From assembly GCF_002929495.1 (NCBI RefSeq), contig NZ_PJJJ01000037.1:336931-400930 (forward strand): a DNA stretch of 64,000 nucleotides, written 5' to 3'. The notes beneath the pieces are model-generated. The model was not told the origin of the DNA. It did no database searches and saw nothing but the letters and a program-made list of their open reading frames with translations. Shown one piece after another: positions 5,663-9,921 of the stretch. This DNA comes from Cryobacterium sp. Y82 (lineage in GTDB: Bacteria; Actinomycetota; Actinomycetes; Actinomycetales; Microbacteriaceae). The translations under genes and the position numbers were made by a program. Positions within the stretch are counted from its first letter, which is position 1, and each line of letters begins with the position of its first letter.

Positions 5663-6001
5663 CTAGACGCTCAGCCGCACGCTGGCCACGATCACGACGA
5701 TCTGCACGACCGGCGGGTAGTCGCCCTGCTCGAGATGCGCGGCGATTGCGTCGTGTACCCGACCGCTCACGTGACCCGAGGACTCCGCCGCACCGATGCC
5801 GATCTTGGCCGTGACCCGAACGCCGTCGCCCTGCTCTCCGACATACACCAGGGGCGCGGCTGGCGCGCGATGAGCCACCGCGTCGAGCGCGGCGGTGAGC
5901 ATGGCGGTCACGAGCGGCCCGGCCGGGTACAGCGACTCGACGCCGGGCACCTGGCGCACCAACGCATCAAGCTGGTCGGTCGAGGGAAGAACCGAGGTCA
6001 T
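5663..6001 (-). CDS. Asp23/Gls24-associated small protein
   Basis: A 112-residue protein with a compact alpha/beta pattern (RVTAKIGIG, then GRVHDAIAAHL, then VVQIVVIVASVRL) like a shortened Asp23/Gls24 domain. Its ATG overlaps the stop of the preceding Asp23-like gene by one base (TGATG), so translation is probably coupled. It is the last gene of the sigma-factor transcript. A role in cell-envelope stress is inferred from context only. Confidence 0.65.
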   Translation of the reverse strand: MTSVLPSTDQLDALVRQVPGVESLYPAGPLVTAMLTAALDAVAHRAPAAPLVYVGEQGDGVRVTAKIGIGAAESSGHVSGRVHDAIAAHLEQGDYPPVVQIVVIVASVRLSV

Positions 6002-6648
6002 CAGCGCTCCATTTCTCGAACGGATACATCGGGCAGGGCGTGCAGATCGCTCACCGTGATGTCGATGGCCGCCACGACGAGTTCCGTGTACCTACTCAGT
6101 GCGGCATACATTGCCTGTCTGAGCCGCTCGGCCAGCAACGGTATGTTCTCCCCCGGAAATACGGTCACGTCGACCCGAATCAAAATTGGCGTTCCGGGCA
6201 CGCTAACGTCGCCGACCAGCACACACCGGCCCACGAACATGTTCTGCATACTGTCGCCGGTCTCGCGCAGAATGCCACGAAGCGCTCCCTCCGTCACGAC
6301 CAGGCGCGCTGTCGGCGACGGGTGAGTCAGCGGAATGTCCCGCCCGGCGTGGGCTTCCAGCGTGATGTTGTCGAGAATCGACGCCACCCAGTCGTCGGCG
6401 CGCAGGGATTCCCGTTCCAGGTCTCTGGCGAGCAGCGCCTGCCGGGCCCGGCGCAGGCGTTCGAGACCCCGCAAGGCGATCTCGCATTCGGGTGAATCAT
6501 CAATGCGGGGGTCGGCGGGAACCCGTCCACGGTCGAGGTAGTCGCTGAGCTGTTCAACCGTATGCCCGTCCAGCTCGGCCTGTTCTCGAACGGTGTCATC
6601 CAGATCGAAAGCAACGAAGCGCTCGTCTGCCGGCGTCAATTCAGTCAT
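6001..6648 (-). CDS. Asp23/Gls24 family envelope stress protein with N-terminal extension
   Basis: A 215-residue protein. Residues about 1-110 are acidic and helical (QLSDYLDRGRVPADPRIDD, ALRGLERLRRAR) and show no zinc-binding anti-sigma motif. Residues about 115-210 look like an Asp23 fold (VTEGALRGILRE, VRVDVTVFPG-type strands). It starts inside the last codons of the ECF sigma gene (4-base overlap). Given that position, normally occupied by an anti-sigma factor, the N-terminal part could bind the sigma factor; this is inference. Confidence 0.7.
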   Translation of the reverse strand: MTELTPADERFVAFDLDDTVREQAELDGHTVEQLSDYLDRGRVPADPRIDDSPECEIALRGLERLRRARQALLARDLERESLRADDWVASILDNITLEAHAGRDIPLTHPSPTARLVVTEGALRGILRETGDSMQNMFVGRCVLVGDVSVPGTPILIRVDVTVFPGENIPLLAERLRQAMYAALSRYTELVVAAIDITVSDLHALPDVSVREMER

Positions 6649-7220
6649 CGCCAGTCCTCCATCTCTCGAAGCAGGGTCTTGCGGGCCCGTGCCAGCAATC
6701 CACGCACGGTCGATAACGGCAGGTGCAACTCAAATGCAATGTCATGGTAGCTGTACTCGGCCAGTTCGCGCAGAGTCCAGCAGCGTCGTTGGTCCTCAGG
6801 GAGATCAGCGAGCACCCGGGCGAGGGCTTCGGTCTGGGACTCAACCTCCGCGACGACGTGCGGGGCGGTACTCTCCGGCGCCGGGGCGTCCGTGTCTTCG
6901 ATGTTGACGTGGGCGCGCCTGGCACGCAGCCGATCGATGCTTTTACGACTGACGATGCGCATCAGCCAGCTTTTGACAGCCCTGCCATCGTCGAGGGTGC
7001 CCAGCTGCTGCCAGGCCGTAATGAAGGACTCCTGCACGACATCATCGGTCTCGTCGTTGAAACCGAGGACCCTGGTCGCGTAGACCCGCATAAGCGGTCC
7101 ATAGCGCCGCACGAGCACCTCAAAGGCACGCAGGTCGCCATCGGCGGCGCGCTCGGCCAACACCTGGTCGGCGGCCGCATCGAGCGGCGACGCAACCTGA
7201 TCCCGCACTGTGCCGGACAC
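6645..7220 (-). CDS. ECF-type RNA polymerase sigma factor
   Basis: A 191-residue sigma factor. Region 2 is clear (RAFEVLVRRYGPLMRVYATR, DETDDVVQESFITAWQQL, VKSWLMRIVSRKSIDRLRAR) and region 4 is clear (LADLPEDQRRCWTLRELAEY, HDIAFELHLPLSTVRGLLARARKTL). The GTG at 7220 is chosen because GGAGGAGGGG lies immediately upstream; longer readings add an unrelated tail. It is divergent from the Asp23 operon at 7351 and leads two Asp23-like genes, so it probably controls this locus. No conventional zinc-binding anti-sigma gene is next to it. Confidence 0.85.
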   Translation of the reverse strand: MSGTVRDQVASPLDAAADQVLAERAADGDLRAFEVLVRRYGPLMRVYATRVLGFNDETDDVVQESFITAWQQLGTLDDGRAVKSWLMRIVSRKSIDRLRARRAHVNIEDTDAPAPESTAPHVVAEVESQTEALARVLADLPEDQRRCWTLRELAEYSYHDIAFELHLPLSTVRGLLARARKTLLREMEDWR

Positions 7221-7267
7221 ATCCCCTCCTCCAGCGAACGCTTTGAGAGAATTTCTCAACTTCGTGT

Positions 7268-7291
7268 GACGAATATGGCACAGGTTTCGTC
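7268..7291. promoter_or_regulatory. symmetric element between divergent stress operons
   Basis: GACGAA (7268-7273) and TTCGTC (7286-7291) form a perfect inverted repeat with a 12-base spacer in the gap between the sigma factor and Asp23 operons. Each half contains CGTC reading outward, the core of many ECF -10 elements. It may be a bidirectional promoter element or a dimer site. The matching -35 elements are not convincing by eye. Confidence 0.3.
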
Positions 7292-7350
7292 CTACAGGTA
7301 ACAATCCACTTCGGCTTGACCGTCCGGCCGCACGCAAAGGAGCTATTCCC

Positions 7351-7830
7351 ATGGACCTTATCGACACCAACGGCGCCGCATCCCCGAACAAGTCCCCGCG
7401 CAGTCGCACCCCGATCAACACACCATTGGCCGGTGAGTCGGCTACCGGAACCGGCAAGACAGTCATTAACGACAGCGTCGTCGCGAAGGTGGCCGGCATG
7501 GCCGTCCGGGAAGTCTCCGGCGTGCACGCCCTCGGGGGAGGTGCGGCCCGCGCCCTCGGAGCCATTCGTGAAGCCATGAACAACACGGATGTGAGCCAGG
7601 GCATCTCGGTTGAAGTCGGTGAAACGCAAGTGGCAGTCGATGTGACCATCGTCGCGGAGTACCCCGTTCAGCTGCAGCAGGTAGCCGATGACATCCGCTC
7701 GAGTGTTATTCGTGCCATTGAAGACCTTGTCGGTCTCGAGGTCACCGAGGTCAATGTGACAATCGTCGACATCCACCTGCCGAGCGATGACGCTCCCGAG
7801 ACCGAGCCGAGCAAAGCCGCACTCCGATGA
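7351..7830 (+). CDS. Asp23/Gls24 family envelope stress protein
   Basis: A 159-residue cytoplasmic Asp23/Gls24 protein. After a variable N-terminus the domain runs from about residue 45: VINDSVVAKVAGMAVREVSG and GVHALGG, then VAVDVTIVAEYPVQLQQVAD, then VTEVNVTIVDIHL. In Gram-positive bacteria Asp23 is anchored to the membrane by AmaP and responds to cell-wall stress. AAAGGAG is 9 bases before the ATG. It starts a run of five overlapping genes and overlaps the next by 4 bases. Confidence 0.9.
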   Translation: MDLIDTNGAASPNKSPRSRTPINTPLAGESATGTGKTVINDSVVAKVAGMAVREVSGVHALGGGAARALGAIREAMNNTDVSQGISVEVGETQVAVDVTIVAEYPVQLQQVADDIRSSVIRAIEDLVGLEVTEVNVTIVDIHLPSDDAPETEPSKAALR

Positions 7831-8021
7831 CCACCGCGACCCGTACCGGAATGCTGGTCGGAGCGGTTCTCGCATTGACCTGGGTGATTTTGGGCTTTTG
7901 GGCATTCTTGTTCGTGGGCCTGGCCATGCTGGTTGGTGCCCTGGTGGGCCGTGTCGTTGATGGCCGTCTCGACCTGAGCTCACTGATCGGAGCGTTCCAA
8001 GGAAAGCGTTCATCATCGTGA
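7827..8021 (+). CDS. DUF2273-like small membrane protein
   Basis: A 64-residue protein made mostly of two hydrophobic segments (about residues 10-28 and 30-44) with a short polar tail. DUF2273-type small membrane proteins accompany Asp23 and AmaP in many Gram-positive genomes. It overlaps both neighbours by 4 bases, which indicates coupled translation. Probably part of the membrane platform that holds Asp23 proteins. Confidence 0.75.
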   Translation: MTTATRTGMLVGAVLALTWVILGFWAFLFVGLAMLVGALVGRVVDGRLDLSSLIGAFQGKRSSS

Positions 8022-8464
8022 GCGTGGCGGCCGATACCGCGCACGGCTGGTTTCTCGGCGGGGCAGAACAGGACGCAGCAGCCAACGGCATTTCGGCCGC
8101 GACCGTGACTTCTGCCCCGCCGCGCGGCCGTACCCGCATCGTGCCTCGAGCTCTTCGCCAGGTCGTCTCGATGGTCACGGCGGAATCGCTAGGCGTTCCC
8201 TCCGGTCAAGTCCGCGTGGAACTCGGCGACGACCACGGCCAGCTCGCGCTCACGATCAGCACCACCATCCGCGTCGTTCCCCTCTCCCGCATCACCCGCG
8301 AACCAGCCATTATCGCTCGCACTGGCGGCACGATCCTGGCCCGGTCGGCCCGGTCGCAAGTTGAGATTCGACGCCGTGTCGGAGAACTGACCGGTGCCGA
8401 TGTCGGCCGGGTCATTGTGCGGCTGACCGGCATTGACGTGCAACAGGAACGGAGGGTGCGATGA
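8018..8464 (+). CDS. Asp23-like protein of the envelope stress operon
   Basis: A 148-residue protein starting at a GTG within the preceding stop (GTGA). It is basic in the middle (RTRIVPRALRQVVSMV) and then shows an Asp23-like strand/helix pattern (QVRVELGDDHGQLALTIS, GRVIVRLTGIDV). There is no membrane segment. It may be a second Asp23-type subunit that assembles with the product at 7351. I know no dedicated function. Confidence 0.7.
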   Translation: MSVAADTAHGWFLGGAEQDAAANGISAATVTSAPPRGRTRIVPRALRQVVSMVTAESLGVPSGQVRVELGDDHGQLALTISTTIRVVPLSRITREPAIIARTGGTILARSARSQVEIRRRVGELTGADVGRVIVRLTGIDVQQERRVR

Positions 8465-9069
8465 CATCCACGCAGATTGTTCGGTCCTCGGAGCCGATGA
8501 CACCAATCTACCGGCGCATCGGGCGGCGTGAACTGCACTCGCCGCGGTCAGCGGCGGCCATCAGCGTGGCCATCGTCGTCATTACGCTCTGCGGATGGTT
8601 GGGCACCGAAATTGTGCTTCTCCTGATCGGCCAGCCGCCCCTGTTCGTGACACCAGCGGGACTGGCTGCCGCTATTGCATCCGTTTCGACCGTTCCGGCA
8701 TCGCTACTTGCCGTTAGCGCTCTCGTCTGCGCCATCCTCGCCATCACGCTCTTGGTCATCGCCGTCACGCCCGGGCAGCGGGCGCGGCATTTGATCGATT
8801 CGGAACGCACGGTGACCGTCGTTGATGACGAAGTCATCGCGTCCGCTCTGGCCGGGCACGCCGCTCGTGTGGGCCGCATCGACCCCGACAGTACCCGGGT
8901 CAGCATTTCTCGTCGCCTCGCCACTGTGCATCTAGTACCGACATCGGGGCAGCCGGTGCAGCGCGACTCCGTGCAGCAGGCCGTGCGCGACCAGCTCGAT
9001 GGCCTGCACCTGCGACCGACGCTGCAGGCCCATGTCGTCGTGGCCCTGGGCGGAAAGGTCGGAACGTGA
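8461..9069 (+). CDS. DUF6286-type membrane protein
   Basis: A 202-residue protein with two membrane segments (about residues 30-55 and 78-101) and a soluble C-terminal domain (TVTVVDDEVIASALAGHA ... LQAHVVVAL). The arrangement recalls DUF6286 proteins found in actinobacterial Asp23 loci. It overlaps the gene on each side by 4 bases. With the next gene it forms a pair of two-helix membrane proteins of nearly equal length, consistent with AmaP-like anchors. Confidence 0.7.
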   Translation: MTSTQIVRSSEPMTPIYRRIGRRELHSPRSAAAISVAIVVITLCGWLGTEIVLLLIGQPPLFVTPAGLAAAIASVSTVPASLLAVSALVCAILAITLLVIAVTPGQRARHLIDSERTVTVVDDEVIASALAGHAARVGRIDPDSTRVSISRRLATVHLVPTSGQPVQRDSVQQAVRDQLDGLHLRPTLQAHVVVALGGKVGT

Positions 9070-9671
9070 ATAACACCAACCGCGCGCTTAACCGCAGCGT
9101 CATTCTGTTGACCGGGCTGGTGCTGCTCGCCGCGGCCACCCTGCTGGGCCTGCTCGCAATACAGGTCACGCTGCGGGATGCCTGGACGTCGGTTACTGAA
9201 AGAGTTGGCGGCACGGTCGCCGGCTGGCTCGAAACCACGCCGCTCGGCGGCACGCAGAAGAGCTGGATCTGGATTGTCCTCCTCGCCCTGTTGCTGGCCA
9301 TCGTCGTCCTTTTGCTCAGCTTCATTTTGCGGCAGGGGCGCGGCCATTCCGGCCACCTGATCAGTGAACACACCACGGATTGGGGCACCACACAGGTTGA
9401 TTCCGCGGTCGCCGAGCAAGCGCTGCACAACGCACTCAGCGAGCACCCGGAATTTCTATCGACCCGCGTCTCGACCTACCGCGTGGCCAGCGACGCCGTA
9501 CTCAAGGTCTCGGTCACCTGTCGACGAGGAACCTCTCCGACCGACGTCGTGCGCGTCGTCGAACAGGCCCTGCATGCCCTCGATGAACTCCTCGGCCTGC
9601 GCATCCCTGCCGTTTTGCAGATCAGCGGCGGCTTCCGGGTGCGTACCAGTCGCACCACGCGCACTACCTAA
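9066..9671 (+). CDS. AmaP-like membrane anchor of the Asp23 locus
   Basis: A 201-residue protein with membrane segments at about residues 10-32 and 70-92, an extracytoplasmic loop between them, and a cytoplasmic C-terminal domain (VDSAVAEQALHNALSEHPE, VLKVSVTCRRG, VVEQALHALDELLG). This is the layout of AmaP, which tethers Asp23 to the membrane. GTG start inside the previous stop. It ends the tightly overlapping block. Confidence 0.7.
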   Translation: MNNTNRALNRSVILLTGLVLLAAATLLGLLAIQVTLRDAWTSVTERVGGTVAGWLETTPLGGTQKSWIWIVLLALLLAIVVLLLSFILRQGRGHSGHLISEHTTDWGTTQVDSAVAEQALHNALSEHPEFLSTRVSTYRVASDAVLKVSVTCRRGTSPTDVVRVVEQALHALDELLGLRIPAVLQISGGFRVRTSRTTRTT

Positions 9672-9747
9672 ATCTTTGCCGATACTTGCGTTCAGCGCTT
9701 CCGCGCCGAACACTCCCCCAGAACCACCTCACGAAAGAGAGAACACC

Positions 9748-9921
9748 ATGAGTGCAGCCGACAAGATCAAGAACGCCGCGCAGGACCTCAAGGGCAAAGC
9801 CACTGAGGCCGTGGGCAAGGCCACCAACGACGACTCCAAGGTTGCCGAAGGACGCGCCGACCAGACCGCGGCGAGCGCCAAGAAGGTCGGCGAAGACGTC
9901 AAAGACGTCTTCAAGAAGTAG
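9748..9921 (+). CDS. CsbD family stress protein
   Basis: A 57-residue, highly charged CsbD protein (SAADKIKNAAQDLKGKATEA, then KVAEGRADQTAASAKKVGED). CsbD-family proteins are general-stress proteins under sigma-B in Bacillus; their biochemical role is unknown. GAAAGAGAG lies before the ATG. It follows the Asp23 block after a 76-base gap and supports the reading of the region as a stress island. Confidence 0.88.
   Translation: MSAADKIKNAAQDLKGKATEAVGKATNDDSKVAEGRADQTAASAKKVGEDVKDVFKK

Follow-up and report, generated by a model that had tools for sequence, protein, structure and literature searches.

An Asp23 domain fused to a probable anti-sigma factor of an ECF sigma factor encoded opposite an asp23 operon in Cryobacterium sp. 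Y82

We analyzed a 64,000-nt stretch of the Cryobacterium sp. Y82 genome (contig NZ_PJJJ01000037.1, positions 336,931 to 400,930; hereafter the window, in whose numbering coordinates are given), which contains a nine-gene locus combining an extracytoplasmic function (ECF) sigma factor with several Asp23-family proteins. The 215-aa product of the minus-strand gene at 6001−6648 is very probably the anti-sigma factor of the adjoining sigma factor and carries an Asp23 domain. This sigma factor (6645−7220, minus strand; 191 aa, GTG start) was recognized by Pfam through region 2 (1.4e-15) and region 4 (r4_2, 1.8e-12). The domain make-up of the protein, the gene order, a conserved promoter-like motif and the joint loss of these components from some genomes were established computationally. 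We consider it likely that the 6001−6648 product controls the sigma factor, that the released sigma factor drives the divergent asp23 operon, and that the signal enters through the Asp23 domain. The N-terminal class I domain, devoid of its zinc site, would keep the sigma factor off RNA polymerase, as its homology suggests, and the freed sigma factor would transcribe the asp23-DUF2273-AmaP operon from the conserved motif GTGACGAA-N14-CGTC at 7266−7291. The C-terminal Asp23 domain may read the signal, most likely by contacting the membrane-anchored Asp23/AmaP assembly whose production the sigma factor would direct; this is the least certain of the steps.

The product of 6001−6648 is a predicted soluble protein in which residues ~1−103, encoded by 6337−6648 on the minus strand, form a putative degenerate class I (zinc-type) domain, and residues ~104−205 an Asp23 domain. 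The latter aligned with the Asp23 profile from this locus at 99.9% hhalign probability (E = 4e-32), and the Pfam Asp23 model matched the same part at 8e-4, below its curated cut-off. A preliminary description of the locus had reported a 110-residue acidic N-terminal domain joined to an Asp23-like domain, in agreement with the ~103 residues measured here, 25 of them acidic and 14 Lys or Arg. It had also concluded that the locus has no ordinary anti-sigma factor, a view that the following comparisons of profiles and ligand columns contradict.

Order- and class-level relatives of the protein have C(G) followed by Hx3Cx2C at a shared position in the N-terminal region. In scans of 21 relatives, Pfam reported zf-HC2 in just two (best E = 0.076) and NCBIfam reported RsrA in five (best 0.0065). 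Since these matches, like those in the Protein Data Bank (PDB), were too weak alone, N-terminal profiles of class-level relatives (n = 17), order-level relatives (n = 13), relatives with CxxC (n = 7) and relatives without CxxC (n = 91, near-copies included) were compared with profiles of RsrA (n = 29, a usable stretch being available from 29 of 30 loci) and zf-HC2 (n = 27, from 27 of 30 loci), with shuffled columns as the control. Against RsrA, the class-level, order-level and CxxC profiles reached 95%, 94% and 92.5%, respectively, and the profile without CxxC 5%; the corresponding values against zf-HC2 were 92%, 91%, 92% and 27%. Five other protein profiles from the locus all stayed below 2% against RsrA. 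The RsrA scores of 46.8 (class-level), 41.1 and 37.9 far exceeded the maxima of 14.3, 15.8 and 19.6 obtained after column shuffling, where the probability maxima were only 1.3% (class-level), 2.3% and 9.6%; 55 of the 60 class-level shuffles returned a score. The C and Hx3Cx2C residues of the zinc-bearing relatives were in register with RsrA. The window's own clade matched the class-level N-terminal profile at 86% and reached RsrA only via these intermediates. Taken together, these comparisons argue that the N-terminal domain of the 6001−6648 product descends from the class I zinc anti-sigma domain, to which it is linked through its relatives; the sequestering part of the protein would thus be ordinary, and the Asp23 part the unusual attachment. 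Sequence does not tell whether the regulation is positive or negative, and an Asp23-fused protein that activates or stabilizes the sigma factor instead of inhibiting it was therefore also considered; this appears highly improbable, given that the solved members of this domain family, as described in a passage of PMC7406223, inhibit sigma factors.

AlphaFold modeled the whole protein with a predicted local distance difference test score (pLDDT) of 86.4 and a predicted template modeling score (pTM) of 0.57, and residues 1−104 with a pLDDT of 80.5 and a pTM of 0.54. The predicted helices of the N-terminal domain span residues 31−39, 47−50, 53−82 and, after a short break, 86−101. According to a passage of PMC7406223, the class I anti-sigma domain consists of a bundle of helices 1−3 and a helix 4, and the Hx3Cx2C signature spans helices 2−3; the predicted helices 1−3 followed by a separate helix 4 fit this layout. 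Structure searches with the whole model, including Foldseek, recovered only the fold of the Asp23 domain, in the C-terminal domains of cation-diffusion facilitators. The predicted Asp23 domain (residues 117−203) resembled chain A of MamM 3w8g with Z = 9.2 and a root-mean-square deviation (rmsd) of 2.1 over 77 residues.

The zinc ligand columns of the window protein are occupied by D27, R48, S52 and C55, so that one of the four ligands (C55) is retained. The complete C + Hx3Cx2C ligand set of the zinc-binding anti-sigma (ZAS, RsrA-type) proteins is thus not found in the window protein and is present in 29 of 93 non-redundant relatives, including 17/17 class-level proteins. Three ligands were kept in 8 of the 93, two in none, one in 45 and none in 11, and this clustering at four or three or at one or none would be expected from a single, coherent zinc site. 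When the presence of at least three ligands was mapped on a tree built from the sigma factors only, this label changed twice, compared with a mean of 29.2 changes for shuffled labels. One change marked a clade of 55 that holds the window, and the other marked L118, a long branch of uncertain placement; with a midpoint root, which serves the drawing only, both changes are losses. The ligand counts and the tree exclude the broken loci L051, L059 and L060, loci fetched twice, rows more than 85% alike, and the divergent L127 and L128, which have no Cys/His motif. By sequence, the ligand columns and the sigma tree assign the window protein to a branch that is zinc-less within a family of zinc type. 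The same passage of PMC7406223 describes anti-sigma groups in which types with and without zinc coexist, as well as class I domains that bind a sigma factor without zinc; such mixing is not in itself new. RsrA-like sensing of zinc or thiol stress, with the Asp23 domain merely positioning the protein at the membrane, could hold outside the window's clade, where relatives with all four ligands are found; with a single ligand left in the window protein, and none or one in 56/93 relatives, zinc/thiol sensing is very unlikely here. On one sister-genome contig (G013:C10), there are two copies of the system, the zinc-less L004 and L021 with three of the four ligands. One Cryobacterium breve copy has its sigma gene in two frames and its anti-sigma gene open (L051, 5433−5950), and in a metagenome copy the anti-sigma gene is in two pieces (L060, 5947−6579).

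The coupling of the two genes was conserved across the relatives. Alignment of the anti-sigma protein alone identified 107 relatives, the best 80 of which, here called the named loci, all had a sigma gene directly upstream of the Asp23-fused gene (80/80), 78 of them with a 4-base overlap; those closest to the window came from Cryobacterium (Microbacteriaceae). A relative of the third gene of the sigma operon, encoding a small Asp23-like protein, was at its place in 72 of these loci, and an Asp23 gene lay within the examined stretch in 69. The sigma gene was likewise upstream in 17/17 class-level loci (overlap of 4 bases in 12 and 10 bases in 5), where a shorter stretch was examined and the third gene and the Asp23 gene were found in 10/17 and 11/17, respectively. 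Among 26 genomes of the genus, the anti-sigma gene was detected in 23 (E up to 1e-10; weak matches covering just the Asp23 part were not counted) and Asp23 in 23 (E up to 1e-8), and G001, G017 and G670 were without the anti-sigma gene, Asp23 and the motif together. The stringent form of the motif described below was present in 21 of the 23 genomes having the pair, the exceptions being G003 and G669. Co-loss can also be explained by loss of the target, so that it demonstrates coupling and not its direction. A version of the locus on the Streptomyces plasmid NZ_CP109366.1 comprises divergent Asp23, DUF2273-like, DUF6286 and AmaP-like genes, the sigma gene, the gene for the Asp23-fused protein and the third gene, annotated as Asp23, and is without CsbD; its Asp23-fused protein keeps C + Hx3Cx2C.

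The region between the divergent sigma and asp23 genes contains a promoter-like motif, GTGACGAATATGGCACAGGTTTCGTC, at 7266−7291 on the plus strand, 59 bases 5′ of the asp23 start codon. After 13 duplicates and 23 non-divergent loci had been set aside, 64 distinct divergent regions remained, of which 49 carried the pattern GTGACGAW-N14-CGWC pointing to asp23; the spacer was 14 bases long in 49/49 although 12−16 bases were allowed, and the pattern occurred in 0/3200 divergent regions shuffled by permuting two-base blocks. The 49 loci are kin and not independent events, and the bases within their spacers vary widely. Among non-divergent named loci, the motif was found in 5/18, again with the 14-base spacer. 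A looser motif gave 54/70 and was dropped, since many of its matches fell within the sigma coding sequence, read on the opposite strand. A scan of the intergenic region of the window for sigma-70 promoters found nothing.

A stringent form of the motif, GTGACRAA-N14-CGTCNTA, yielded 35 sites in the 26 genus genomes, compared with 1 for the reversed control, and occurred once in the Cryobacterium sp. Y82 genome, at 7266. By comparison of coordinates, 19 of the 35 sites sit 97−304 bases 5′ of an Asp23 domain. Inspection of 30 of the 35 revealed Asp23 within 900 bases downstream in 18, with a sigma gene on the other side in 10 of these and none within 900 bases in 8; a further 2 lay between sigma and csbD, and the remaining 10 preceded other genes or had an unclear setting. 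Thus, in sister genomes the stringent motif also precedes asp23 genes distant from the sigma gene. It was also found in sister genomes (L196, L208, L189 and L206) before genes that appear to encode an SRPBCC/cyclase protein and a diacylglycerol kinase. A shorter pattern gave 19 genome-wide matches (reversed control 1), mostly overlapping long reading frames, for which reason statements on the regulon are based on the longer pattern.

Several observations weigh against the proposed anti-sigma function or the proposed circuit. The window's own clade matched RsrA directly at just 5% and zf-HC2 at 27%, and the PDB sequence search ranked C2H2 zinc fingers (0.006 and 0.018) above RslA 3hug (0.019), with RsrA 5frf (0.73) and DdvA 8rlz (1.8) further down. 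Given only the N-terminal model, Foldseek returned 10 matches, each with E >6, VIA-align reached Z of at least 2 for 2 of 19 chains (best 2.1, rmsd 3.6 over 48), and no anti-sigma structure was among the matches from either program; a missing structural match does not prove a different fold, and we make no claim on the fold of this domain. Covariation between the sigma and anti-sigma proteins was uninformative at an effective sequence number (Neff) of 76. Two order-level loci, L127 (1195−1878) and L128 (1000−1959), have the sigma neighbor and the Asp23 part joined to an unrelated-looking N-terminus free of the Cys/His motif, which may or may not be a different kind of anti-sigma module. The promoter-like motif was missed in 15/64 divergent regions, several of the misses being one base off, in 13/18 non-divergent named loci, and in the 485 bases before the sigma gene in 17/17 class-level loci. 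Autoregulation is common for ECF genes, and a motif copy towards the sigma operon was found in 0/64 divergent regions, so that autoregulation was not seen. Finally, a passage of PMC9769785 reports that a Streptomyces venezuelae Asp23 gene, which may not belong to such a locus, goes down after ethanol shock, the opposite of the rise that a simple envelope-stress model predicts. In Curtobacterium aetherium, by contrast, Asp23, GlsB and CsbD genes, which again may not belong to such a locus, go up on desiccation (PMC12029717, in a passage).

The direct match of 5%, the loss of three of the four zinc ligands in the window and the different N-terminus beside the sigma genes of L127 and L128 would all suit a domain that is a relic incapable of binding sigma, in a protein that is simply a co-transcribed subunit of the Asp23 scaffold, with the sigma factor controlled by its own transcription. 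We regard this as unlikely, because the domain was retained after zinc loss (L34, P44, L62, W87 and G102 are conserved at ≥90% in 76 sequences), as were the gene order and the overlap, and because zinc-free class I domains can bind sigma factors, as the passage of PMC7406223 indicates. An anti-sigma function, in which the surrounding wiring persists while a zinc anti-sigma domain loses its zinc site, remains our preferred reading.

Under this reading, the zinc/thiol route of the RsrA-type relatives is gone, and the signal is assigned to the Asp23 domain. Of the sources that are left, contact of this domain with the membrane Asp23/AmaP scaffold is the simplest, since the scaffold has a subunit of the Asp23 family too, and we infer it as the source of the signal. 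The preliminary description had pictured a membrane-tethered Asp23 scaffold sequestering the sigma factor. Its sequestering part stands as a probable anti-sigma factor with an Asp23 domain, and its tether is not supported: Kyte-Doolittle windows detected no membrane-length hydrophobic stretch in the 6001−6648 product, so that tethering is possible only through Asp23/AmaP partners. A more specific and tentative version, which we consider less likely than not, is a scaffold that measures itself: the Asp23 domain of the anti-sigma factor would co-assemble with the membrane Asp23/AmaP lattice, the level of free anti-sigma factor would depend on how much lattice there is or on its condition, and the sigma factor would rebuild a damaged lattice, in sister genomes from remote asp23 copies too. 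If signaling by the scaffold holds, a structural envelope protein would have taken over, in the zinc-less clade, the sensing done by an anti-sigma factor of redox type. The role of Asp23 proteins is unsettled, and an Asp23 domain inside a regulator that probably targets asp23 from a named promoter makes both the anti-sigma role and the scaffold feedback testable.

The remaining genes of the locus match the content described earlier (sigma factor, Asp23-like, DUF2273-like, AmaP-like and CsbD proteins) according to Pfam, NCBIfam and the comparison of profiles, with several of the matches falling short of curated cut-offs. As noted before, eight genes overlap within two divergent sets, a leftward one of three and a rightward one of five, with overlaps of 1 or 4 bases between adjacent genes, and csbD follows past a gap as the ninth. 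The third gene of the sigma operon (5663−6001, minus strand) encodes a small soluble Asp23-like protein of 112 aa. On the plus strand, the Asp23 protein (7351−7830, 159 aa; Pfam Asp23 2.6e-25, above the cut-off) is followed by a DUF2273-like small membrane protein (7827−8021; Pfam 6.1e-7, above the cut-off; hydrophobic at residues 6−46), a diverged Asp23-like protein (8018−8464), an AmaP/DUF6286-like membrane anchor with hydrophobic segments (8461−9069; Pfam DUF6286 4.2e-7, below the cut-off), an AmaP-like membrane anchor with two hydrophobic segments (9066−9671; NCBIfam AmaP 9.1e-6, below the cut-off) and the CsbD family protein (9748−9921; Pfam 2.1e-15). All four Asp23-like proteins counted earlier were recovered: 7351−7830 by Pfam, and 5663−6001, 8018−8464 and the C-terminus of 6001−6648 by hhalign at 97%, 92.7% and 99.9%, respectively; the Pfam search gave no match for the 5663−6001 and 8018−8464 products. 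The curated AmaP cut-off (NF033218, 55 bits) was reached neither by 9066−9671 (25.5 bits) nor by 8461−9069 (16.6 bits, E = 0.005). Membrane-length hydrophobic stretches were present in the DUF2273-like and both AmaP-like proteins by Kyte-Doolittle windows.

Downstream of csbD, the window encodes a 179-aa Ala/Asp/Glu-rich protein with a weak apolipoprotein-like match (9981−10520; 0.028) and then a YihY/BrkB family membrane protein (10681−11739; Pfam 1.3e-66). A YihY/BrkB gene also lies beside the asp23 operon of the Streptomyces plasmid (L271, 811−1614), where genes annotated as STAS, ATP-binding and PP2C phosphatase proteins, a partner-switch-like set, adjoin the Asp23/sigma cluster (L271, 7202−10630). 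On the other side, the cluster in the window is flanked by alanine dehydrogenase, a divergent Lrp/AsnC regulator and a LysE exporter (2926−5326).

The locus combines features of three known systems. With RsrA and the class I zinc anti-sigma factors (RslA, PDB 3hug chain B) it shares the N-terminal family of its zinc-bearing relatives and the place after the ECF sigma gene, whereas the window protein has one of the four ligands and continues into an Asp23 domain, which RsrA lacks. The Staphylococcus aureus Asp23-AmaP envelope-stress operon, with its gene set of Asp23, DUF2273 and AmaP, is under SigB; the window likewise brings Asp23, DUF2273-like and AmaP-like proteins together, but has a dedicated divergent ECF sigma factor, and its AmaP matches are below the curated cut-off. 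The third likeness is to ECF286 (model: Streptomyces rimosus) and ECF292 (Mycolicibacterium cosmeticum), which adjoin soluble Asp23-family proteins predicted, without experiment, to be their anti-sigma factors, according to a passage of PMC8999054. The preliminary description knew of no earlier account of such a design; these Asp23-family anti-sigma factors are an already published prediction, and the locus is a version of that design. Our search of the open-access literature (titles, abstract openings and passages) found no experimental study of a pair of an Asp23-type anti-sigma factor and an ECF sigma factor. The likeness to ECF286 and ECF292 rests on the neighboring gene, an ECF sigma factor beside a soluble Asp23-family predicted anti-sigma factor, and not on the sigma model; the Streptomyces plasmid locus shows the whole architecture of the locus minus CsbD, and the window's clade differs in being without the zinc site.

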